Assembly (NCBI GenBank): GCA_017409475.1
Contig: JAFQSP010000003.1
Span: 1 to 64,000, forward strand
DNA: 64,000 bases
Reading direction: 5' to 3'
Source of the DNA: Clostridia bacterium
GTDB taxonomy: Bacteria; Bacillota; Clostridia; Oscillospirales; Acutalibacteraceae
Position 1 is the first letter of the stretch, and each line of letters opens with the position of its first letter. Positions 24,575-42,374 of this stretch are shown piece after piece. The position numbers were made by a program, and so were the translations under genes. The notes beneath the pieces are model-generated. The model had not been told where the DNA came from and searched no databases. It saw nothing but the letters and a program-made list of their open reading frames with translations.

Positions 24575-24602
24575 TAATTTAATGGTTTGTTATTTTACGA
24601 AG

Positions 24603-24798
24603 TAATCCACCCTGCCGTATATCGAATTTTGATAACCTGCTGATAAGCAGGTGGGTGTCCTCCCAATGCCTTTGCGCTTCCAACGTCCGCAACTGAAAAA
24701 AGCTGCGGGAGGCCTGCAATCCCGAACATCGGAGCCGGACTCCCTATAATAAAGGTTGTAGGGTTATAAAAGACGAATGATTCACGAACAGGGTAGAC
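24603..24798 (-). ncRNA. ssrS: 6S RNA (SsrS)
   Basis: This gene-free region of about 195 nt on the minus strand has the layout of Firmicutes 6S RNA. A closing stem is formed by CTACCCTG (5') and CAGGGTGG (3'). Inside are an unpaired central bubble, a long apical hairpin (GGCCTCCCGCAGC with GTTGCGG, and GAGTCC with GGAGGACA), and a small CCTGCTTATCAGCAGG hairpin in the 3' side of the bubble. The run GGGAGGACACCCACCTGC is one I associate with clostridial 6S RNAs. A TATAAT sits just upstream (24805-24810). 6S RNA binds the housekeeping RNA polymerase and lowers transcription in stationary phase. Confidence 0.72.
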
Positions 24799-24826
24799 AG
24801 TATAATTATATTCGCCTGATTATAAA

Positions 24827-27537: not shown

Positions 27538-27546
27538 ATTATACAA

Positions 27547-27624
27547 GGTTTTCCGCTACTGACGGAATGTGATTTAACACAATGAAACGGAAAACACTAT
27601 ATATTATTGCCGACCGTCTGGGCA
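27547..27624 (+). promoter_or_regulatory. ZTP riboswitch (pfl motif) upstream of guaB
   Basis: The first helix is closed by GTTTTCCG (27548-27555) and CGGAAAAC (27588-27595), holding ACTGACGGAATGTG with a small internal hairpin. A short linker leads to the diagnostic 3' block CCGACCGTCTGGGCA at 27610-27624. These match the two-domain ZTP/ZMP riboswitch, which senses shortage of 10-formyl-tetrahydrofolate. The target genes here, IMP dehydrogenase and formate-THF ligase, fit purine and one-carbon control. The GGGCA also forms the start of the downstream terminator stem, so ligand binding would prevent termination. Confidence 0.88.
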
Positions 27625-27672
27625 GAACTACCTTTTTTTAAAAGAGAGATTGGGTAGCTCTGTCTATTTTTG
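27623..27672 (+). terminator. Riboswitch-controlled terminator upstream of guaB
   Basis: GCAGAACTACC and GGGTAGCTCTGT pair across an A/T-rich loop and are followed by CTATTTTTG. The 5' arm overlaps the last bases of the ZTP aptamer, making the two structures mutually exclusive. Confidence 0.8.
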
Positions 27673-31095: not shown

Positions 31096-31116
31096 AAATT
31101 GTATATCAATAATAAA

Positions 31117-31396
31117 AGCTTTGACGAAGAGAGCATGGGTGAACAATTTTACAGAGAAGCGGCGTTTGGTGCGAGCCGCCGAATAATAACCCGATGCCGT
31201 AGCTTCTGAGCTGAGAGGAAGAAAGCTGTTTTTACTTGGGCGATTAGAACCTCTCCGTGACTGCCGCGTAAGAGCATATGGGTTGTTTGACCCTGAGTGG
31301 CGATTTTTTAATCGCAATTTGAGTGGTACCGCGGGTTTTGTATCAGTTACACGGCTCGTCTCAAAGTATTTTATCTTTGGGACGGGCTTTTTTACG
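31117..31396 (+). promoter_or_regulatory. T-box leader, valine (GTA) specifier
   Basis: The T-box sequence TGAGTGGTACCGCGG is at 31320-31334. Stem I base pairs AGCT/AGCT and GAAG/CTTC enclose the specifier loop, whose 5' side is AGAGA; GCATGGGT pairs with ACCCGATGC above it. The 3' side of the loop reads CGTAG, so the specifier is GTA (31199-31201), valine. The terminator is at about 31354-31395 (GCTCGTCTCAAAG with CTTTGGGACGGGC, then T run). Uncharged tRNA-Val would favour antitermination and switch on the acyl-CoA ligase, VOR and ilvE genes. Confidence 0.92.
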
Positions 31397-31418
31397 TCCC
31401 TGAATGGAGAAAGAGGAT

Positions 31419-33704
31419 ATGCATAACATTGCAGGACTTGATTTAAAAATCAAGGAAATGGCGCGCAGAATTTACGAATTGCGCGAAATCGAAAATTTAA
31501 CAACAGCACAAATGGCTGAAAAAACGGGAGTCAGTGAGCAGGAGTATATCAATTGCGAAAACGGACTTCAGGATCTCAATTTCGCCTTTATTTATCGTTG
31601 TGCCCTTGCCTTTAATGTTGACGTAACCGATATTATCGAGGGAAAGAGCCCAACTCTTAAATCATACACAGTAACCAAAAAGGGCGAAGGTCAAAAGATT
31701 GAGCAGGCGCATGGTATGATTTACTATAATCTTGCAGCAGCCTTCCGTAACCGAATTGCCGAGCCGCTTTACGTTTGCAGTAAATATAGCGAAGAAGCGC
31801 AAAATCGCGAAATCGAGCTTACAAGCCACGCCGGTCAGGAATGTGACATCATAATTGACGGTCATCTTATGGTTCAAATTGGCGAACATAAGGAGATTTT
31901 AGGCCCCGGCGACAGTATTTATTACGATAGCTCGTCACCACACGGAATGATAGCCGTTAACGGTGCCGATTGCCATTTTTACGCAATCGTTTTGAACCCG
32001 ACAGGCGAGCCTGTCCCCGAGCTTCAAAAGCAGCTACCCCTTTCAACAAAGCCGCGCGAGAGAGACCCTCAGCAGCGCGTGTATAAGAAATTTATCGAAA
32101 GGGTAGAGGACGATAACGGCACACCTATTTCAATCAGTTTCAAGAATACCGATAATTTCAACTTTGCCTTCGACGTCGTCGACGAAATCGCGAACAAAAC
32201 CCCCGATAAATTGGCAATGTTACATATTTCCCGCGACAAAACAGAACGTAGAATCACCTTTAAGGATGTAAAGAGACATTCGTCGCAGGCAGCTAATTAT
32301 TTCAAGTCGCTCGGAATTAAAAAAGGCGACCGAGTAATGCTTATTTTAAAGCGTCACTACCAGTATTGGTACGCAATAATCGGACTCAATAAGCTTGGCG
32401 CAATCGCAATTCCTGCACCCAATCAGCTTCAGGAGCATGACCTTGATTATCGCTTCAAGTCGGCGGGAGTAAAGGCGATTATCTGTACAGCCGACGGCGA
32501 CGTAGCCAATCAGGTTGATTTAGCGGCAAAGAATTGTCCGACCCTTGAACATAAAATTATCGTTAACGGAAATAAAGAGGGTTGGCGTAATTTCGATGAC
32601 GAAATGGCGCTTTTCAGCTCCCATTACGATAGAACAGAGGATGCTCCCGGCGGAGACGACCTTATGCTAATGTTCTTTACCTCGGGTACTACAGGTTATC
32701 CGAAGATTGCCGCACATAATTATAAATATGCGCTTGGTCATTTCCATACGGCTAAATATTGGCACAATGTTGACCCCGAAGGATTGCATTTCACAATCTC
32801 GGATACAGGTTGGGCAAAGTCAATGTGGGGTAAGCTTTACGGCCAGTGGCTATGCGAAGCGGCTACATTTGTTTATGACTTCGACCGCTTTGATGCGGCG
32901 GATATTTTACCGATGTTCGAAAAGTATAAGATTACTACATTCTGCGCACCGCCTACAATGTTACGTATGATGATAAAGCAGGATATTTCAAAGTACGATT
33001 TTAGCTCGGTTAAGCATATGACAACGGCGGGAGAAGCCCTCAACCCCGAGGTTTACCGCCAATTCGAAAAGGCAACCGGACTTCAAATTCTTGAAGGCTT
33101 CGGTCAAACCGAGAGCACAATGATTATCGGAAATATGACCGGTGCCGACCATAAAATCGGCTCAATGGGTAAGCCTGCTCCTATTTATGACGTTAAACTC
33201 GTTGATTCTGACGGAAATGAAGTTCCTGTCGGCGAAAACGGAGAAATCGTAGTTAATGTTTCAAACGGAGTGCCTTGCGGTCTCTTTACCGGATATTATA
33301 ATGACGAAGAAAAGACAAAAGAGGTCTGGTACGACGGTTATTACCATACGGGCGACGTTGCTTGGCGTGACGAGGACGGTTTCTATTGGTACGTTGGACG
33401 TGCCGATGACGTAATCAAGTCATCGGGCTACCGAATCGGACCCTTCGAAATTGAAAGCGTTATTATGGAGCTTCCGTACGTGCTCGAATGTGGCGTTTCA
33501 GCCGCACCCGATGAGGTACGCGGCCAGGTTGTTAAGGCAAGCATCGTACTCGTAAAGGGTACCGAGCCGAGCGACGAGCTAAAAAAAGAAATTCAGGACT
33601 ATGTCAAAAAGCATACTGCGCCGTATAAATATCCGCGTATAGTTGAATTTAAGGACGAATTGCCAAAGACAATCAGCGGAAAAATTCAGCGCAATAAGCT
33701 GTAA
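31419..33704 (+). CDS. HTH-cupin-acyl-CoA synthetase fusion protein
   Basis: Three-part protein of 761 residues. Residues ~10-70 form an XRE-type helix-turn-helix (LREIENLTTAQMAEKTGVSEQEY), ~110-185 a cupin barrel (GQECDIIIDGHLMVQIGE, LGPGDSIYYDSSSPHGM), and ~215-761 an AMP-binding ligase with MFFTSGTTGYPK near 420, EGFGQTES, YYHTGD near 641, and the catalytic Lys region SGKIQRNKL at the end. The ligase should activate a carboxylic acid to its CoA thioester. Context (Val T-box, VOR, ilvE) suggests isobutyrate or another branched short-chain acid. The ATG at 31419 follows AAAGAGG. The sensor domains may regulate the enzyme or DNA. Confidence 0.88.
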   Translation: MHNIAGLDLKIKEMARRIYELREIENLTTAQMAEKTGVSEQEYINCENGLQDLNFAFIYRCALAFNVDVTDIIEGKSPTLKSYTVTKKGEGQKIEQAHGMIYYNLAAAFRNRIAEPLYVCSKYSEEAQNREIELTSHAGQECDIIIDGHLMVQIGEHKEILGPGDSIYYDSSSPHGMIAVNGADCHFYAIVLNPTGEPVPELQKQLPLSTKPRERDPQQRVYKKFIERVEDDNGTPISISFKNTDNFNFAFDVVDEIANKTPDKLAMLHISRDKTERRITFKDVKRHSSQAANYFKSLGIKKGDRVMLILKRHYQYWYAIIGLNKLGAIAIPAPNQLQEHDLDYRFKSAGVKAIICTADGDVANQVDLAAKNCPTLEHKIIVNGNKEGWRNFDDEMALFSSHYDRTEDAPGGDDLMLMFFTSGTTGYPKIAAHNYKYALGHFHTAKYWHNVDPEGLHFTISDTGWAKSMWGKLYGQWLCEAATFVYDFDRFDAADILPMFEKYKITTFCAPPTMLRMMIKQDISKYDFSSVKHMTTAGEALNPEVYRQFEKATGLQILEGFGQTESTMIIGNMTGADHKIGSMGKPAPIYDVKLVDSDGNEVPVGENGEIVVNVSNGVPCGLFTGYYNDEEKTKEVWYDGYYHTGDVAWRDEDGFYWYVGRADDVIKSSGYRIGPFEIESVIMELPYVLECGVSAAPDEVRGQVVKASIVLVKGTEPSDELKKEIQDYVKKHTAPYKYPRIVEFKDELPKTISGKIQRNKL

Positions 33705-33714
33705 GGTGAATGGA

Positions 33715-34374
33715 ATGAATTTCAGCAGAATAACGATAATTTCGGGACATTACGGCAGCGGAAAAACGAATATTGCAGTTTCACTCGCTTATGATTTAAA
33801 AAGGATAAGGGAAAAGGTCGCAATAGCCGACATTGATATCGTAAACCCGTATTTCAGGACAAAGGATAACGAGCAACAGCTCGAAAATGCGGGTATCCGC
33901 CTCATTTGTTCGGAATATGCTAATTCGAATGTCGATATACCCGCCTTGCCGCAGGATATGTACGCTGTTACAGATGATAAAGAATTGCATTCAATTCTCG
34001 ACGTCGGCGGCGACGAAAGGGGCGCTTTGGCGCTTGGTCGAATTTCTCCCGCAATCCGCGAGGAAAACGATTATCAAATGCTATACGTCGTGAATAAATT
34101 TCGACCGCTTACAAAGGATGCCGATTCGGCAATCGAGGTAATGCGCGAAATCGAAGCGGCATGCGGACTTAAATTCACCGCGATAATAAATAATTCCAAT
34201 TTAGGCGCCGAAACAATGGCAGACGACGTAATCAGCTCGCTTAATTATGCCGCCGAAATCTCGCAAAAAACTAATTTACCCGTTTTGTTCACCTCGGTCA
34301 ACAGGTCGGTTGCCGAGCAACTAAACGGCGAAATAGATAATCTTTATGTTATGGAAATTGAAACAAAACTGTAA
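33715..34374 (+). CDS. MinD/ParA-like P-loop ATPase in the VOR operon
   Basis: This 219-residue protein has a Walker [16 protein letters not shown] at the N-terminus, [11 protein letters not shown] as switch segment, and [14 protein letters not shown] as the Walker B-type region. It resembles the CobQ/MinD/ParA group but lacks a partner such as ParB. It lies 10 bp after the fusion ligase and 14 bp before the ferredoxin subunit, all in one transcript. Roles could be metal or cluster loading of VOR (as for Mrp/NBP35-type ATPases) or regulation; neither is shown. The start at 33715 follows AAGGTGAATGGA. Confidence 0.7.
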
Positions 34375-34388
34375 AGGAGAATGAAAAA

Positions 34389-34595
34389 ATGGCTGTTTTG
34401 ACATTCAAAACCGACAAGTGTAAGGGTTGCGGTCTCTGTGTAGAGGCGTGCCCAAAGGGAGTTCTTGCGCTTGCATCGGATAAAATTAACCTAAAAGGAC
34501 ATCATCCCGTAGAGGCGGTAAATGCTGATGCTTGTATCGGCTGTGCCTTCTGCGCAACAATGTGTCCCGATTGCATTATAAAGGTCGAAAGGTGA
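34389..34595 (+). CDS. vorD: 4Fe-4S dicluster ferredoxin, VOR delta subunit
   Basis: Small ferredoxin of 68 residues with two CxxCxxCxxxCP motifs: [12 protein letters not shown] and [12 protein letters not shown]. It transfers electrons between external ferredoxin and the thiamine-pyrophosphate centre of the 2-oxoacid oxidoreductase. AAGGAGAA precedes the ATG. The order delta-alpha-beta-gamma downstream is standard for VOR/KOR operons. Confidence 0.9.
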
Positions 34596-34604
34596 GTGAA
34601 CAAG

Positions 34605-35669
34605 TTGGCAGATAAAGTACTTATGAAGGGTAACGAAGCAATCGCAGAAGCTGCAATAATCGCAGGTTGCCGTCATTATTTCGGATACCCTATTACACCT
34701 CAAACCGAGGTTGCCGCTTATATGGCAAAGAGAATGCCCAAAATCGGAGGAACCTTCCTCCAGGCAGAGAGTGAAATTGCCGCAATTAATATGGTTTACG
34801 GCGTAGCCGCCACAGGAAAGAGAGTAATGACCTCGTCATCAAGCCCGGGTATCTCTCTTAAAGGCGAAGGAATTTCATATTTAGCAGGTGCCGATTTACC
34901 CGCTCTTATCGTAAACGTTCAGCGTGGTGGTCCCGGTCTTGGTGGAATTCAGCCGTCACAGTCGGACTATTTCCAGGCAACAAAGGGTGGGGCACATGGC
35001 GACTTCCATATGATCGTTCTCGCTCCCGATTCGGTTCAGGAAATGGCCGAGCTCACAGTAAAGGGTTTTGACCTTGCTGATAAATATCGTATGACTACAA
35101 TGATTCTTGCCGACGGTACAATGGGCCAGATGATGGAACCGGTATCACTCGATTTCGAAGTAGGCGAAAAGGTAGAAAAGCCTTGGGCTGTCACCGGAAC
35201 AAAGTTGGAGAGAGAGCATAATATTGTAAACTCCCTTTTCTTAAAGCCGGAAGAACTCGAAAAGACTAACTTCGAGCGCTACGAAAAATACAGCTATATC
35301 GAGGAAAATGAAGCACTTTGCGAAGAATATATGATGGATGATGCCGAAATTTGCGTTACCGCATTCGGTATTGCCGCTCGTGTAGCAAAGAACGCTATCA
35401 ACGAAGCAAGAAATCAGGGAATAAAGGTCGGACTTCTTCGTCCGATTACCCTTTGGCCCTTCCCGAAAAAGCAGTTTGCCGCTGCCGCCGATAAGGTAAA
35501 GCAGTTTATTTCTGTTGAACTTTCAATGGGTCAGATGATTGAGGACGTTCGTCTTGCAACCGAATGCAAGGTACCGGTTACACTTTGCAACCGCGCAGGT
35601 GGTATGATACCTTCGCCCGAACAGGTACTTGAAGCAATTATCAAAGCAAATAACGGAGGTGACAAATAA
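34605..35669 (+). CDS. vorB: 2-oxoacid:ferredoxin oxidoreductase alpha subunit VorB
   Basis: Pyrimidine-binding/alpha subunit of about 354 residues. It begins [21 protein letters not shown] with [16 protein letters not shown], the VorB opening, and contains [26 protein letters not shown]. It uses or makes 2-oxoisovalerate-type acids with VorA/VorC. I prefer the TTG at 34605, 9 bp after GGTGA, because family members begin at that point; a GTG three codons earlier is possible. It shares one base with the next gene. Confidence 0.92.
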
Positions 35670-36418
35670 TGGTAGTATTCGATAAACCGCATGCACTCGC
35701 TGACGTGCCAATGCACTATTGTCCCGGCTGTACTCACGGTATCGTACACCGTCTTGTCGCCGAGGTAATTGACGAACTCGGAATCGAAGGCAGAACAATC
35801 GGTATTGCACCGGTTGGCTGTTCGGTTATGGCTTATGACTATTTTAACTGTGATATGATCGAGGCCGCTCACGGTAGAGCTCCCGCAGTTGCCACCGGTG
35901 TAAAGCGCTCCGACCCGAACAATATTGTATTTACATATCAGGGTGACGGTGACCTCGCATCAATCGGTATGGCCGAGACTGTTCATTCAGCCGCAAGAAA
36001 CGAAAATATCACCATTATCTTTATAAACAACGCAATTTACGGAATGACAGGCGGTCAGATGGCTCCTACATCTTTGCCCGGTCAGGTTACTCAGACTTCA
36101 CCTTATGGTCGTGACGTTGAGGCCTGCGGATTTCCGATTAAGGTTTGTGAAATGCTTTCACAGCTTGACGGCGCCGAATATCTCGAAAGAGTTGCCGTTA
36201 ACAATGTAAAGAATGTAAAGAACGCAAAGAAGGCTATCAAAAAAGCCTTTGAAAATCAGGTAAACGGCAAGGGCTTCTCACTTGTTGAGGTAGTTTCAAG
36301 TTGCCCGACAAACTGGGGAATGACTCCTTCACAGGCACTTAAATGGATTGATGAAAAGATGATTCCTTATTACCCGCTTGGCGTTTATAAGGACAGATCG
36401 GCTGAGAAGGAGGACTGA
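35669..36418 (+). CDS. vorA: 2-oxoacid:ferredoxin oxidoreductase beta subunit VorA (TPP)
   Basis: Thiamine-pyrophosphate subunit of 249 residues. [15 protein letters not shown] near the N-terminus, the TPP/Mg motif [20 protein letters not shown] and [17 protein letters not shown] identify it. It cleaves or forms the bond between acyl-CoA and CO2. The ATG overlaps the vorB stop (TAATG). The complex is reversible; the valine T-box in front suggests use in the carboxylating, biosynthetic direction. Confidence 0.92.
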
Positions 36419-36420
36419 AA

Positions 36421-36957
36421 ATGAGCACAACACAGTATTTATTTGCAGGATTCGGCGGTCAGGGTATCTTGTTTTCGGGTAAATTACTCGCATACAAGGG
36501 GCTTACCGACGGAAAGAATGTAAGCTGGCTTCCTTCTTATGGCCCCGAAATGCGTGGCGGTACAGCAAGCTGTAGCGTAATTATCAGCGACGATGCGGTT
36601 GGCTCACCGATTGTATCAAAGCCCGACGTTTTAATCGCAATGAATCTTCCTTCACTTGACAAATACGAGGATACCGTCGTTTCGGGCGGAATGATTTTTG
36701 TCGATTCCTCGCTTATCGAACGAAAGGTAAAGCGCGACGACGTAAAGGTGTTCTACATTCCCGCAACAAAGCTCGCTTCCGACAACGGAATAGCTAAGCT
36801 TGCCAACATTATCCTTATGGGTAAGGTGTTGGCTGAAACAAACGGATTTGACAATGAAGAAAGTGTAAACAATGCTCTCAAAAAGGTTATTTCCGCAAAG
36901 CATAGCGATATGCTCGAGGTAAACCTTAACGCTATGCGAATCGGCAGAGATTATTAA
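36421..36957 (+). CDS. vorC: 2-oxoacid:ferredoxin oxidoreductase gamma subunit VorC
   Basis: This 178-residue subunit opens with [18 protein letters not shown] and has [19 protein letters not shown], the CoA-binding gamma-subunit signatures. It begins 2 bp after vorA behind GAAGGAGG, so the complex is made stoichiometrically. With the delta, alpha and beta subunits upstream, all four VOR components are present. Confidence 0.92.
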
Positions 36958-36971
36958 GGGAGAGACGAAAA

Positions 36972-38036
36972 ATGGAAATAAAGATTCAAAAAACTGCAAC
37001 TCCGGCCGAAAAGCCCGATAGCAGTACACTTGGCTTCGGTAAGGTGTTTACCGACCATATGTTTATAATGGACTATACCGCCGGTGAAGGTTGGCACGAT
37101 GCACGAATTGTTCCGTTTGGAAAGGTCGAAATTCATCCCGCATCAACCGTTCTTCACTACGGCTCCGAAATTTTTGAGGGATTAAAGGCATACAGAAAGG
37201 CTGACGGCAGCGTTCAGATGTTCAGACCTATCGAGAATATCAGACGTATGAACCGTTCGGCCGAGCGTATGTGTTTGCCTCAAATTCCCGAGGATTTAGC
37301 TCTCGAAGTGCTTACCAAATTCATCGAATTTGAGCAGGAATGGACCCCGTCAGCCGAGGGAACATCACTTTACATCCGTCCCTTTATGTTCGGTAATGAC
37401 GAGTCACTCGGTGTTCACTCGGTAAAGAATGCTACATTTATGATTATCACTTCACCCGTTGGTAGCTATTATAAAGAGGGAATTAATCCCGTTAAAATTA
37501 TGATAGAAACTAATGACGTACGCGCTGTAAGAGGCGGTACAGGTGAAGCAAAATGCGGCGGAAACTATGCCGCAAGTAACCGCGCAGGTGACAGAGCCGA
37601 AAAGCTCGGCTATTCTCAGGTTCTTTGGCTTGACGGCGTTGAGCGCAAGTATATAGAAGAGGTTGGCGCAATGAACGTTATGTTCAAAATCGGCGGCGAA
37701 ATCGTTACACCGATGCTTGCCGGCTCAATCCTCCCCGGAATTACCAGAAAGTCGATTATCGAGCTTCTTAAATCCGAGGGATATGCTGTCAGCGAAAGAC
37801 TTATCAGTATTGATGAGCTTGCCGAAGCTCTCGAAAACGGCACACTCGAAGAGGCATGGGGTTGCGGTACAGCAGCTGTTGTTTCTCCGATTGGCGAGCT
37901 CTGCTACAAGGATAACAAGTATGTCATAAATGAAGGAAAAATCGGCGAGGTTACTCAGCACCTCTATGATACCCTTACCGGTATCCAGTGGGGTAAGGTC
38001 GAGGATACTTTCGGCTGGACATATAAAATTAATTAA
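36972..38036 (+). CDS. ilvE: Branched-chain amino acid aminotransferase
   Basis: PLP fold-type IV enzyme of 354 residues. It is of the eukaryote-like group: opening FGKVFTDHMFIMDY, HYGSEIFEGLKAYR, IRPFMFG, the PLP Lys in GEAKCGGNYAAS, EEVGAMNVMF and LPGITRKSIIELLKSEGY. It interconverts Val/Leu/Ile and their 2-oxoacids with glutamate. It is the last gene of the valine T-box operon, where it completes amino acid synthesis from the VOR product. GGGAGAG precedes the ATG. Confidence 0.95.
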   Translation: MEIKIQKTATPAEKPDSSTLGFGKVFTDHMFIMDYTAGEGWHDARIVPFGKVEIHPASTVLHYGSEIFEGLKAYRKADGSVQMFRPIENIRRMNRSAERMCLPQIPEDLALEVLTKFIEFEQEWTPSAEGTSLYIRPFMFGNDESLGVHSVKNATFMIITSPVGSYYKEGINPVKIMIETNDVRAVRGGTGEAKCGGNYAASNRAGDRAEKLGYSQVLWLDGVERKYIEEVGAMNVMFKIGGEIVTPMLAGSILPGITRKSIIELLKSEGYAVSERLISIDELAEALENGTLEEAWGCGTAAVVSPIGELCYKDNKYVINEGKIGEVTQHLYDTLTGIQWGKVEDTFGWTYKIN

Positions 38037-38045
38037 AAATTATAC

Positions 38046-38074
38046 TTGACAAACCAATCGTTTGGTGCTATTAT
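38046..38074 (+). promoter_or_regulatory. Sigma-A promoter of the leucine T-box operon
   Basis: TTGACA and TATTAT with a 17-bp spacer, 10 bp past the ilvE stop. Confidence 0.87.
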
Positions 38075-38089
38075 TATCCCATATTTTAA

Positions 38090-38371
38090 ATGCGACGAAG
38101 GAATTATTTGTCCCTTTAAAGTACATCATAGAGAGTCGGCGATTGGTGAAAGACCGATATGTACCATGGGATAAAGTCTCGTTCCTGAGCATAATCTCCG
38201 AAAAAAGTATTTTTGAGTAAGAGATTACGGCTTGCCCCGTTATCATGGCAGAGAGCTTGTTTGAGCTCAGCGAGTGACTGTGATTGTTTCACAGTAACCG
38301 GGGTGGTACCGCGGATTAAAAGTATCAATTCGTCCCTGAAACCTAAATTTTATAGGTTTCAGGGTTTTTTT
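38090..38371 (+). promoter_or_regulatory. T-box leader, leucine (CTC) specifier
   Basis: The T-box GGGGTGGTACCGCGG is at 38300-38314 and the terminator at 38334-38371 (CCCTGAAACCTA with TAGGTTTCAGGG plus T run). Stem I has GGAA/TTCC at its base, then TCCC/GGGA, GTACAT/ATGTAC and TCGG/CCGA above, with AGAGA in the distal part. The 3' side of the specifier loop ends GTCTCG before TTCCTGAGC; aligned with the glyQS-type layout the specifier is CTC (38178-38180), leucine. It controls the LeuA-like gene and the fusion ligase downstream. Confidence 0.88.
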
Positions 38372-38406
38372 ATTTGCATAAAATGCTATCGAAGGAAAGT
38401 GATGAA

Positions 38407-39804
38407 ATGAAACAGATTAAAGTAACCGACATGACACTCGAAATGGGCGCAGCAACCCTATCATTTAAGGAGAAAATTGAAATAGCCCGTCAGCTTGATA
38501 ACCTAAAGGTTGACGTTATCGATATGCCCGAGATTGTAAATGTTACAACCGATTCATTACTTATAAGAACCATTTGCGCCTTTGCAAAGAACAGCACAAT
38601 CAGCGTTTCGACAGGTAGAACGGTTGATGGAGTTGCTGTTGCCGCAGCAGCAGTAGCAGGAGCAAAAAGCACAAGATTAAAGGTGAATTTACCTGTATCA
38701 CCCGTTCAAATGGAATATTCTTGTCACAAAAAGCCTGCTAAAATGCTCGAACTTGCAAAGCGGCTTTTTACCGCTGCTACCGAAAAGTCGAATGATGTCG
38801 AATTTTTTGCAGCCGATGCGACACGTGCCGAACCTGACTTCTTGAAGGAAATTATTACCTTAGCCATTGATTCGGGAATAAAAACAATCACCCTTTGCGA
38901 CGACGAAGATGTTATGCTGCCCGACGAATTTGCTACGTTCATATCTGATGTAAAGGAAAATAATCCTGCACTTAACGATATCAATTTCGGCGTTCTCTGC
39001 CGTAATAGAAACTCGATGGCAACCGCATCAGCAATTATGGCTATTAAGGTTGGCGTTGACGAGATAAAGTGCTGTGCCGCAAGGGACGATTTGCCGAAGC
39101 TCAATGTTCTCGCTAACATAATTAATAATAGCGGCGACCGAATCGGCGTTAAATCGAACCTTAATTATAATGAACTCTACCGTATCTTGAAGCAGATTGA
39201 GTGGATTTGCGGAACAAAGATGAATAATGACATCGAAAACATTGTCACCGATTTTGCCGATTCCGACCAGCCGATGCTTGCTTCCGACGATACGCTTGAA
39301 ACTGTATCTGCCGCTGTTAAAAAGCTTGGCTACGACCTGTCGGAAGAGGACTATGTAAAGGTATATGACGAATTTAAGCGACTTGCCGAGAGAAAAAAGG
39401 TCGGATCAAAGGAGCTTGACGCTATTGTAGCAAGTACAGCCCTTCAAGTACCGCCGACATATAAGCTGGTTAGCTATGTTATCAATACCGGCAATATTGT
39501 TTCGGCTTCGGCCCAAATCACACTCGAAAAGAGTGGAGAAGAAATTTCCTCAATTAGTATGGGTGACGGCCCTGTTGACGCATCGTTTAAGGCGATTGAG
39601 CAGATTATCGGTTGTCATTTTGAGCTTGACGATTTCCAAATTCAGTCGGTTACCGAGGGCAGAGAAGCCGTCGGTTCGGCCATTGTCCGTCTCCGTCATA
39701 ACGGAAAGCTCTTTTCTGGTAACGGAATTTCCACCGATATCATCGGTTCATCAATAAGGGCATATATTAACGCAGTTAACAAGATTGTTCACGAGGAGTC
39801 TTAA
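38407..39804 (+). CDS. Degenerate LeuA homologue with leucine-sensing domain
   Basis: This 465-residue protein aligns along its length with 2-isopropylmalate synthase. The N-terminal barrel keeps the frame (LSFKEKIEIARQLDNLKVDVID), but the active-site DTTLRDGEQ reads DMTLEMGAA: catalytic Arg is Glu12, metal-ligand Asp is Met13. The metal His-x-His reads V-L197-C-R199. All three metal ligands are thus gone. The C-terminal regulatory (LeuA dimer) domain from ~350 is well kept: SMGDGPVDASFKAIEQIIG and GNGISTDIIGSSIRAYINAVN. It may be a leucine-binding regulator or have a new activity. AAGGAAAG precedes the ATG. Confidence 0.85.
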   Translation: MKQIKVTDMTLEMGAATLSFKEKIEIARQLDNLKVDVIDMPEIVNVTTDSLLIRTICAFAKNSTISVSTGRTVDGVAVAAAAVAGAKSTRLKVNLPVSPVQMEYSCHKKPAKMLELAKRLFTAATEKSNDVEFFAADATRAEPDFLKEIITLAIDSGIKTITLCDDEDVMLPDEFATFISDVKENNPALNDINFGVLCRNRNSMATASAIMAIKVGVDEIKCCAARDDLPKLNVLANIINNSGDRIGVKSNLNYNELYRILKQIEWICGTKMNNDIENIVTDFADSDQPMLASDDTLETVSAAVKKLGYDLSEEDYVKVYDEFKRLAERKKVGSKELDAIVASTALQVPPTYKLVSYVINTGNIVSASAQITLEKSGEEISSISMGDGPVDASFKAIEQIIGCHFELDDFQIQSVTEGREAVGSAIVRLRHNGKLFSGNGISTDIIGSSIRAYINAVNKIVHEES

Positions 39805-39805
39805 T

Positions 39806-42325
39806 ATGAAACTTTCTTTTTCAACAAAGGGATGGCACGGAAAAAGCTTTGACGAATTTTGCCAAATGGCAAAGGAGCTCAGGTTTTCCGGCATTGAACT
39901 TCATAATATAAATAACCGTCTTTTCACCGATAAGGAGAGCGCTTTTCAGGATTATACAGCTTCATCAACCCTACGTAAGCTGTATGAAATGAAACTCACA
40001 ATTCCTTGTATCGACAGTATTTGCGACCCGGCCGATAAGGCTGCTCACGACGAGGCAATAGCCGAAATCACCGAGTGTATCCGCATAGCAAAAAATTTGC
40101 ATATTCCGAATATTCGCATCCACGCATCCGAGCATGATACCGACGATATGGAAACGGTAGAAGCTTTTTGCGCCGAAATTTTACCTATAGCTGAAAAAGA
40201 GGGTATAACCCTTCTTTTTGAAACAAGCGGACTTTTCTGTGATACCGCAAAGCTGCGTGACTTACTCGAACGTTTTGCTTGCGACAGTGTTGCAGCTCTT
40301 TGGGATATGTATTCTCCTTATTTTATCGCCAACGAAGCACCCGAAAAGACGATAGAAAATCTCGGTGCGTATGTTAAGCACATTCATATCAAAGATGCTG
40401 TCCGTACCGCTAACGGAACCGAATTTTGCCTTATGGGTGAGGGCGAATTGCCTGTGAATGAGATGATTCTGGCTCTCCGTTCGGTCAATTACGACGGATT
40501 CATTTCACTCGAATGGACACCCGACTGGTGCAAGGAGCTTGACGATTTAGAAATCGTTCTTTCCCAGTTTGAAAACTATATGAGTCAGTTTTCCGACACG
40601 TCAAAGTCGGATAATAGCCTTTATTACAACAATGCGCATACAGGAAAATACGTTTGGAAAAAGGATTTACTCATCGATTGTACTTTTTCCGAGGTTCTCG
40701 ACCGAATGGTTGAGGAGTTTCCCGACCGACTCGCATTTAAGTATACAACCCTCGATTATACCCGAACATATTACGAATTCCGTAAGGACGTTGATACCTT
40801 TGCGCGTTCGCTCATTTCGCTCGGAGTAAAACCCGGTCACCACGTAGCCGTTTGGGCAACAAACGTACCCCAGTGGTATATTGCCTTTTGGGCGGTAACA
40901 AAAATAGGCGCAGTTTTGGTATCAATGAATACGGCGTATAAGATTCACGAGGCTGAATATTTGCTCAAACAGTCTGATACGCATACACTCATTTTGGTTG
41001 ACGGCTTCCGTGATTCAAATTACGCCGCAATTATTGCCGAGCTTTGTCCCGAGCTTGAAAATACCGAGCCCGGTCAGCCGCTCCACAGCCGCCGTTTGCC
41101 CTTCCTGCGCAACGTAATCACAGTTGGCTTTAAGCAAAAGGGATGTATAAGCTGGGAAGAAGCTATTGAGCGCGCCGAAATGGTGCCTGTTGAAGAGGTT
41201 TACCGTCGTGCAGCAGCCGTTGATAAGGATGACGTTTGTAACATGCAGTATACCTCGGGTACAACAGGTTTCCCGAAGGGCGTTATGCTTACCCATTACA
41301 ACGTTGTAAATAACGGAAAATGTATCGGCGACCGTATGGACCTTTCAACCGCCGACCGTATGATGATTCAGGTGCCCATGTTCCACTGTTTCGGAATGGT
41401 ACTTGCTATGACCGCATCAATGACCCATGGCGTTACCTTGCTCCCGTTGCCGTATTATGCACCAAAGCCTGCACTTGCCTGCATCAATGATGAGAGAATA
41501 ACCGCATTCCATGGTGTTCCTACTATGTTTATTGCAATGCTTGAGCATGAGGACTTCGCAAAGACCGATTTTTCATACATGCGTACCGGAATTATGGCCG
41601 GAAGCCCTTGTCCCATCTCGGTTATGCGCGACGTAATTGATAAGATGAATATGAAGGAAATCACCATCGTTTACGGCCAGACCGAAGCTTCACCCGGTTG
41701 TACAATGAGCTCAACCGATGATTCAATCGAGGTTCGTGTCGGAACGGTAGGAAGAGCACTTCCCGAAATAGAATGTAAAATTATCAATCCCGAAACGGGC
41801 GAGGATTGTCCCGACGAAGTTACAGGCGAGTTTGTTGCTCGTGGATACAATATCATGAAGGGGTATTATAAAATGCCGAGAGCTACTGCCGCCGCTATTG
41901 ATAAGGACGGTTGGTTGCATACAGGCGACCTTGCCTGTCGTACAGCCGAGGGAAATTATCGTATCACAGGCCGACTCAAAGATATGATTATCCGTGGCGG
42001 CGAAAATATTTATCCGAAGGAAATCGAGGAATTCATCTACACTCATCCGAAGGTAAAGGACGTTCAGGTAATCGGTGTCCCCGACGAACAATATGGCGAA
42101 GAAATTATGGCCTGTATTATCTTAAAGGACGGCGAGCAAATGACCGAAGCCGAAATGAAAGAATACATCAACGCTCATATGGCTCGTCATAAGGTTCCGC
42201 GTTATATCGATTTTGTGACCGAGTTCCCGATGAACGTCGCAGGAAAAATCTTAAAGTACAAGATGCGTGAGGACGCTATCAAAAAGCTCGGACTCCAAAA
42301 GGCAAACTCAATCGAAACAGCATAA
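39806..42325 (+). CDS. TIM-barrel isomerase-like / acyl-CoA synthetase fusion
   Basis: This 839-residue fusion is translated right after the LeuA-like gene (GAGGAG overlaps the upstream stop region). Residues ~1-265 form a xylose-isomerase-like TIM barrel that keeps the usual metal ligands (LLFETSG, ALWDMY, VKHIHIKD, ISLEWTP). Residues ~290-830 are an AMP-forming acyl-CoA synthetase with MQYTSGTTGFPKGVMLTH, VYGQTEASPG, GWLHTGD, RLKDMIIRGGENIYPKEIEE and the catalytic Lys in AGKILKYKMRE. The ligase half resembles medium/short-chain fatty acid CoA ligases. Under a leucine T-box, isovalerate is a plausible substrate. The barrel's job is unclear. Confidence 0.88.
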   Translation: MKLSFSTKGWHGKSFDEFCQMAKELRFSGIELHNINNRLFTDKESAFQDYTASSTLRKLYEMKLTIPCIDSICDPADKAAHDEAIAEITECIRIAKNLHIPNIRIHASEHDTDDMETVEAFCAEILPIAEKEGITLLFETSGLFCDTAKLRDLLERFACDSVAALWDMYSPYFIANEAPEKTIENLGAYVKHIHIKDAVRTANGTEFCLMGEGELPVNEMILALRSVNYDGFISLEWTPDWCKELDDLEIVLSQFENYMSQFSDTSKSDNSLYYNNAHTGKYVWKKDLLIDCTFSEVLDRMVEEFPDRLAFKYTTLDYTRTYYEFRKDVDTFARSLISLGVKPGHHVAVWATNVPQWYIAFWAVTKIGAVLVSMNTAYKIHEAEYLLKQSDTHTLILVDGFRDSNYAAIIAELCPELENTEPGQPLHSRRLPFLRNVITVGFKQKGCISWEEAIERAEMVPVEEVYRRAAAVDKDDVCNMQYTSGTTGFPKGVMLTHYNVVNNGKCIGDRMDLSTADRMMIQVPMFHCFGMVLAMTASMTHGVTLLPLPYYAPKPALACINDERITAFHGVPTMFIAMLEHEDFAKTDFSYMRTGIMAGSPCPISVMRDVIDKMNMKEITIVYGQTEASPGCTMSSTDDSIEVRVGTVGRALPEIECKIINPETGEDCPDEVTGEFVARGYNIMKGYYKMPRATAAAIDKDGWLHTGDLACRTAEGNYRITGRLKDMIIRGGENIYPKEIEEFIYTHPKVKDVQVIGVPDEQYGEEIMACIILKDGEQMTEAEMKEYINAHMARHKVPRYIDFVTEFPMNVAGKILKYKMREDAIKKLGLQKANSIETA

Positions 42326-42328
42326 ATA

Positions 42329-42358
42329 AAAAAAGCAGACCAATTGGTCTGCTTTTTT
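42329..42358. terminator. Bidirectional terminator between the Leu operon and glyA
   Basis: AAAAGCAGACCAATTGGTCTGCTTTT is a perfect palindrome flanked by A and T runs. Confidence 0.92.
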
Positions 42359-42374
42359 TATATTATAATTCTAA

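Follow-up and report, generated by a model that had tools for sequence, protein, structure and literature searches.

In the 64,000 nucleotides of contig JAFQSP010000003.1 (assembly GCA_017409475.1, Clostridia bacterium, family Acutalibacteraceae) analysed here, hereafter the window, we found an operon in which a LeuA homologue without catalytic residues is paired with an acyl-CoA ligase behind a leucine T-box. We call this homologue LeuAd, a label coined for this analysis. The explanation that we consider probable is that leucine is made from isovalerate by the ligase, a 2-oxoacid:ferredoxin oxidoreductase (VOR) and the aminotransferase IlvE, and that LeuAd is a former isopropylmalate synthase now serving as the leucine feedback subunit of the ligase. 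The features that point to it, all read from sequence, are the loss of catalytic residues, the conservation of the regulatory domain, the constant pairing of the two genes, the leucine T-box and the gene context.

The interval resembles one transcription unit, with a promoter-like site, a T-box, LeuAd, the fusion ligase and terminator-like sites:

38046..38074, +: sigma-70-like promoter, TTGACA-17 nt-TATTAT with TG before the second hexamer (11/12 matches, by consensus only)
38086..38340, +: T-box leader, specifier CUC (leucine); Rfam RF00230, 117.8 bits for a gathering score of 93
38334..38364, +: terminator-like hairpin, alternative to the T-box antiterminator; 12 pairs followed by a T tract, present in the predicted fold too
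38407..39804, +: LeuAd, LeuA homologue without catalytic residues, with a conserved LeuA_dimer (leucine-binding) domain
39403..39786, +: LeuA_dimer allosteric domain of LeuAd, residues 333-460 (PF08502, 1.3e-31)
39806..42325, +: xylose-isomerase-like TIM barrel fused to an AMP-forming acyl-CoA ligase, proposed isovalerate-CoA ligase
42326..42361, +: terminator-like hairpin behind the operon (consensus match)

The fusion starts 1 nt past the LeuAd stop codon. As background, the scan for such sites gave 13 promoter-like sites for 8.8 expected and 5 terminator-like sites for 4.8 expected. Chance does not explain the layout of the operon: all 52 unique LeuAd genes have the fusion behind them, and 46 of 51 readable leaders carry a leucine specifier.

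Catalytic and regulatory parts of LeuAd

Residues E12, M13, L197 and R199 of LeuAd occupy the columns of the Arg, the metal-binding Asp and the two metal-binding His that we take to be catalytic in LeuA; the initial annotation of this interval had named these four losses, and its positions proved exact in the alignment. We gathered 69 LeuAd sequences, reduced to 52 unique ones and to 47 after a 90% identity cut, having excluded before counting a false hit (L021), a broken frame (L014), a partial sequence (L020) and duplicates of one genome. Among the 52 unique sequences, the catalytic Asp and both His ligands are never found (0/52), and the Arg is found in 14; none of the four residues is kept in 38 sequences and one in 14, always the Arg. 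The GxGER loop is gapped as well (G and E in 52/52, R in 51/52), as are ten columns of the segment holding the catalytic His (52/52).

The control alignment comprised 14 LeuA and 14 CimA-like rows picked via the HxHND pattern, so that the comparison of the His is informative on the LeuAd side only, their presence in 14/14 LeuA rows being by construction. The Arg and Asp of the TLRDG motif are both present in 11 of 14 LeuA rows, the other three not covering the motif. Rows were left out for lack of HxHND (five, four of them with HxHDD and L075 with neither), as short or truncated (L059, L061-L063 and L103) or as near-copies (L094-L097). Concerning the labels, seven of the 14 LeuA rows exceed the TIGR00973 cut-off, plus L093 in a separate check, and two of the 14 CimA-like rows were checked, both lying above the TIGR00977 cut-off.

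LeuAd has the Pfam architecture HMGL-like plus LeuA_dimer, and its profile aligns to the solved LeuA barrels 3ewb, 3rmj and 6e1j over about residues 2-280. It falls below all NCBIfam cut-offs listed, the best match giving 271.7 bits for a cut-off of 532, i.e. about half. Judged by its residues, LeuAd is dead as an isopropylmalate synthase.

The C-terminal regulatory domain presents the opposite picture. Mean pairwise identity in LeuAd is 0.679 in the dimer domain versus 0.407 in the barrel, and the dimer domain is the more similar part in all 1081 pairs of the 47 non-redundant sequences. In LeuA (13 rows) the relation is reversed (dimer 0.434, barrel 0.592; dimer higher in 0/78 pairs), and in CimA-like proteins (13 rows) the two parts are about equal (0.599 and 0.608; dimer higher in 24/78 pairs). 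The LeuA_dimer invariants G386, G388, A392, G440, S442, T443 and D444 are present in 52/52 LeuAd, and the motifs GDGPVDA and STDI, which we read as helix starts, rank among the most conserved positions. A sequence search of PDB chains returned 3f6g/3f6h as the sole solved relative of this domain (E 5.5e-4). The conserved regulatory domain of the initial annotation is thus borne out, leucine binding being a prediction.

We computed dN/dS for six pairs formed by the window sequence and three close relatives, and obtained 0.02-0.04 for the barrel, 0.04-0.09 for the linker and 0.02-0.06 for the dimer domain. LeuAd is therefore under purifying selection and not decaying. Three features of a regulatory pseudoenzyme subunit, namely lost catalysis, purifying selection and a constant partner, are all found in LeuAd, whose effect on the ligase is a prediction.

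Some positions are specific to LeuAd. K109 is invariant (52/52), and K is not among the three most frequent states given for LeuA and CimA-like proteins at that column; K221 is present in 50/52, where LeuA has E and CimA-like proteins have Q (14/14 each); position 447 is G in 47/52 versus E in 13/14 LeuA. K109, K221 and G447 are candidates for partner contact or for a changed ligand response.

The fusion ligase and the leucine T-box

The gene that follows LeuAd encodes the Pfam domains AP_endonuc_2 (the xylose-isomerase-like, XI, TIM barrel), AMP-binding and AMP-binding_C. Its best library match is PRK12583, with 701.5 bits for a cut-off of 832, on another branch of AMP-forming ligases than the valine ligase encoded upstream in the window (see below), with which it shares 26% identity. 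A same-strand fusion is the next gene after LeuAd in 52/52 unique genes, with a gap of -4 to 127 nt (median 2). The coupling of the dead LeuA to a TIM-barrel/AMP-ligase fusion, noted initially in this single locus, is thus general among LeuAd genes. Rare co-occurrence of the two, named at the outset as a condition that would refute the proposal, was checked for and not found.

The family sample comprised 200 genomes of the same family, 52 of which are LeuAd-positive (E up to 1e-50; in G060 by a partial match only) and 148 LeuAd-negative; these 52 genomes and the 52 unique genes are different, overlapping sets that coincide in size. The XI domain is present in all 52 LeuAd genomes and in 36 further genomes without LeuAd, 24 of which carry it in an open frame of fusion length. 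Since the fusion always accompanies LeuAd and also occurs alone, LeuAd is a dependent partner of the ligase, and not the reverse.

We take the metal site of the XI barrel to be an E-D-H-E tetrad, whose columns were picked by eye. This tetrad (E139-D167-H194-E236) is intact in the fusion of the window, in 23 of 54 LeuAd-linked fusions, in 15/15 LeuAd-free fusions and in 4/4 split genes. Residue R57 of the XI barrel is present in 52/54 LeuAd-linked versus 2/15 LeuAd-free fusions. This pattern is as would be expected if the barrel had given up its metal site and become a contact surface, but it follows one single event on the tree.

T-box leaders turn genes on when the charged tRNA is scarce. The leader of the window carries the specifier loop AAAGuCUCG, taken from the alignment and read as CUC (Leu), and folds better than its shuffles (z = -5.0). 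We recognised an antiterminator motif in 46 of the 51 readable leaders ahead of LeuAd, and not in five, and all 46 have a leucine specifier (39 CTC, 7 CTG); the scan admits several triplets per leader, the second commonest being TCC (16), mostly the same site offset by 5 nt. Rfam placed a T-box above gathering score ahead of LeuAd in 7 of 11 relatives' loci submitted. These data bear out the leucine specifier that had been read from the window alone.

The proposed route from isovalerate to leucine and the valine island upstream

Directly upstream of the LeuAd operon, at 31112-38036, lies an island that is absent from the initial annotation and that encodes a second T-box, another ligase and the candidate enzymes for the following steps:

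31112..31366, +: T-box, specifier GUA (valine); 94 bits for a gathering score of 93
31404..33704, +: helix-turn-helix (HTH)-cupin fused to an MbcS-like acyl-CoA ligase, proposed isobutyrate ligase; best NCBIfam match NF047394 (MbcS), 456.2 bits for a cut-off of 850
33715..34374, +: P-loop ATPase of the VOR cluster, CbiA/ParA-like; same spot ahead of vorB in relatives
34596..35669, +: vorB, 2-oxoacid:ferredoxin oxidoreductase alpha subunit; NF005507, 548.9 bits, above cut-off
35669..36418, +: vorA, thiamine pyrophosphate-binding beta subunit; below NCBIfam cut-offs
36421..36957, +: vorC, gamma subunit; PF01558, below NCBIfam cut-offs
36972..38036, +: ilvE, branched-chain amino acid aminotransferase; NF009897, 490.3 bits, above cut-off

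Together, the island and the operon would let the cell use branched short-chain fatty acids to build leucine and valine. The fusion ligase would convert isovalerate, its likely substrate, to isovaleryl-CoA, which VOR would carboxylate reductively to 2-ketoisocaproate, and IlvE would aminate the latter to leucine. LeuAd would descend from the old first enzyme, having lost the condensation of acetyl-CoA with ketoisovalerate. As a dimer, it may still bind leucine in its C-terminal domain, the dead barrel relaying the signal to the ligase, probably by contact with the ligase's own TIM barrel. Leucine would presumably thereby shut off the new first committed step, with the leucine T-box as a second, transcriptional layer responding to uncharged leucyl-tRNA.

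The distribution of pathway genes is consistent with this proposal. Within the family sample, leuB is found in 4/52 LeuAd genomes versus 108/148 genomes without LeuAd, and ilvC in 7/52 versus 103/148. VorB (E up to 1e-100) is found in 48/52 LeuAd genomes versus 66/148 others, and in 24/24 genomes having the fusion but no LeuAd. Fisher tests on genome counts (leuB, ilvC, VorB and the fusion without LeuAd) take related genomes as independent, and their p-values overstate. We discarded leuC (TIGR00170) as a marker, with 0/200 family genomes matching, because even genomes that have leuB score zero for it; its place was taken by leuB and ilvC.

The genome of the window has the ligase, VOR and aminotransferase genes together, with the de novo route missing. 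We found no match to leuB or ilvC in this genome (81% complete) nor in two congeners (93% and 94% complete), and at 81% completeness their absence from the former is provisional. At least three of the 52 LeuAd genomes (G056, G148 and G194) carry another LeuA-type gene among the TIGR00973 matches listed. The linkage with VOR and IlvE and the loss of leuB and ilvC lend comparative support to the route from isovalerate to leucine suggested in the initial annotation, with isovalerate as the presumed substrate. Its idea of a leucine sensor likewise gains from the constant pairing, the inverted conservation and the leucine T-box, and stands as a prediction from sequence.

According to excerpts of PMC7356843, rumen cultures convert isovalerate to leucine by carboxylation and amination (1962 and 1966 references, Allison and co-workers). 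MbcS, as described in excerpts of PMC10026030, activates isobutyrate and 2-methylbutyrate, and isovalerate poorly, so a separate leucine ligase makes sense. Among 15 unique leaders of HTH-cupin ligases, including that of the window, five have a valine specifier (GTA), five an isoleucine specifier (ATC; loci L016, L017, L126, L132 and L134) and five are unreadable; these specifiers, like those of the LeuAd-free fusions, were chosen by eye among candidates. Locus L126 has a valine ligase, an isoleucine ligase and a LeuAd operon with a leucine specifier. These data indicate that a separate acid-CoA ligase gene, under a T-box to match, can exist for every branched-chain amino acid. In the valine and isoleucine ligases, it may be the HTH-cupin part that takes the regulatory place of LeuAd.

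The ATPase at 33715-34374 precedes vorB in the clusters that were seen whole, and has no NCBIfam match at 1e-40.

Origin of LeuAd and alternative explanations

In the trees, LeuAd forms a single clade apart from the LeuA and CimA-like rows (SH-aLRT 100), which supports a single origin. The 54 LeuAd-linked fusions also form one clade (SH-aLRT 100, in a quick tree rooted on separate neighbouring XI and ligase genes), and LeuAd-free fusions branch first in this outgroup-rooted tree. The state of the XI tetrad requires five changes by parsimony. Unfused XI barrel and ligase genes lie near each other in LeuAd-free genomes (L119, L120, L121 and L123, with about 1.9 kb between them in L123), and the XI-ligase partnership may therefore predate the fusion. 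G194 is the first branch within the LeuAd clade (support 94, below the tool's star) and retains LeuA, leuB and ilvC. This favours an order in which the ligase came first, then the fusion, then the capture of LeuAd, after which most lines lost the classical route.

LeuAd is found in more than one family, and Neobittarella massiliensis (L006) is an example of a carrier in culture. In a phylum sample, 14 of 398 genomes match at 1e-90, and 12 of these score 310-349 bits. Eleven of the 12 carry both TLRDG and HxHND, and the twelfth carries HxHND; from these motifs we read the 12 as true LeuA and rejected them, leaving LeuAd in 2/398 (G000 and G252).

It is tempting to read this history as a feedback module that switched pathways, the old first enzyme being captured once, gutted and turned into the leucine-sensing subunit of the new one, with the TIM barrel of the ligase becoming a docking surface; we hold this fuller scenario to be possible, at slightly less than even chances.

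Several observations weigh against feedback control of an isovalerate ligase by LeuAd, or against the history proposed for it. The fusion occurs without LeuAd in 24/200 genomes, so LeuAd is not required for catalysis, and 22 of these 24 genomes keep leuB, where the ligase is at most an extra route. Among 15 LeuAd-free fusions examined (by pattern in 15/15, by Rfam in 12/15), a leucine T-box was found in three and none in 12; together with the 22/24 leuB genomes, this means that the LeuAd-free ligase does not generally have a leucine role. Four LeuAd genomes have no VorB match, and among the 24 loci that extend 6 kb or more to either side, only 12 have VOR close to LeuAd. The change from E to G at position 447 means that the ligand of LeuAd could differ, and K109 and K221 could have become fixed for a new activity. 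Distances in the LeuAd barrel correlate with those in the XI domain (r 0.84, partial r 0.44), but unspecifically, the partial r being 0.37 between the LeuAd barrel and the ligase and 0.06 between the dimer domain and the ligase, and such correlations are weak evidence because linked genes share a tree. Since LeuAd arose once, the later XI changes are not independent. Finally, a midpoint root without the outgroup nests the LeuAd-free fusions among the LeuAd-linked ones, implying loss and not gain of LeuAd, so that gain rests on the outgroup.

The lysines bring up the altered chemistry that the initial annotation had offered as an option, i.e. that LeuAd is an enzyme whose barrel was rebuilt around K109, K221, E103 and P96 for another step, still inhibited by leucine. 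The invariance of K109 and near-invariance of K221, which differ from LeuA and CimA-like proteins, and the purifying selection on the barrel would fit it. Nonetheless, this option has little support because the known catalytic elements are gone, with metal ligands, GxGER loop and catalytic-His segment missing and the Arg in 14/52 only; in every pair the dimer domain is more similar than the faster-diverging barrel, the reverse of LeuA, the proposed pathway requires no extra step, and the fusion manages without LeuAd in 24 genomes. We therefore regard new chemistry as unlikely. A role other than feedback inhibition, in which LeuAd would bind leucine and act on the ligase, or on a complex of ligase and VOR, as a chaperone, scaffold or activator, is also rather unlikely. 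Constant adjacency, the correlated distances of the two barrels and the distribution of R57 would all suit such a role, but a leucine-binding domain as the best conserved part is not what a pure scaffold would lead one to expect.

An operon for leucine uptake or catabolism, or for branched fatty acid supply, in place of leucine synthesis is a further alternative, and acyl-CoA ligases and VOR can run in several directions. The S. aureus MbcS feeds fatty acid synthesis (excerpts of PMC10026030), and LeuAd-free fusions are mostly in genomes with leuB. Against such an operon, T-boxes activate at a shortage of charged tRNA and the specifier is leucine in 46/46 leaders, IlvE and VOR are in the same island, and leuB and ilvC are rare in LeuAd genomes; we consider it improbable. 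Decay, with LeuAd as a relic carried by hitch-hiking, could be argued from the lost catalytic residues and from the one row with a broken LeuAd frame (L014), but dN/dS of about 0.02-0.09 in all parts, the presence in more than one family and a regulatory domain that is the best conserved part largely refute it, and we rejected it on dN/dS as highly improbable.

Sensor pseudoenzymes are a kind already known. HisZ, the regulatory pseudoenzyme subunit of ATP-phosphoribosyltransferase, resembles LeuAd as a noncatalytic enzyme homologue partnering the first enzyme of a biosynthesis; LeuAd would differ in that its donor was the old first enzyme to the same product and its target an unrelated enzyme starting an alternative route. 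With LeuA itself (TIGR00973; PF00682 plus PF08502), LeuAd shares the two-domain architecture, an alignable barrel and the GDGPVDA and STDI motifs, and differs from it by its missing catalytic elements, its inverted conservation and the acyl-CoA ligase that follows in every case. T-boxes ahead of leuA genes, a likeness to the LeuAd operon, are on record in excerpts of PMC2494555 and PMC2700814. MbcS (NF047394; excerpts of PMC10026030) carries out the type of reaction that we propose for the valine/isoleucine arm (31404-33704) of the island; the leucine ligase belongs to another branch of AMP-forming ligases and has the XI barrel in place of the HTH-cupin part. The rumen carboxylation of isovalerate (excerpts of PMC7356843) is the same overall conversion by carboxylation and amination, to which the present loci would add a concrete gene set, T-box control and a putative feedback subunit, as predicted from genes.

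A full-text literature search, made mostly in papers outside subscription, returned no catalytically dead LeuA, no T-box-controlled branched-acid CoA ligase and no such cluster, nor any paper naming the genes of isovalerate-to-leucine carboxylation together with their control. With ligases under matching T-boxes, these loci give a compact set of candidate genes on which the pathway can be tested directly in gut Clostridia. If true, the proposal would offer a clean example of how an allosteric domain can survive the enzyme that it belonged to and be put to use again in trans, with the end product unchanged. It also carries a warning for annotation, as a LeuA-like gene in these genomes need not imply that leucine is made by the classical route.

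Elsewhere in the window, a 6S RNA (24600-24802, -) and a ZTP riboswitch (27545-27630, +) score above their Rfam gathering scores, and both are ordinary.

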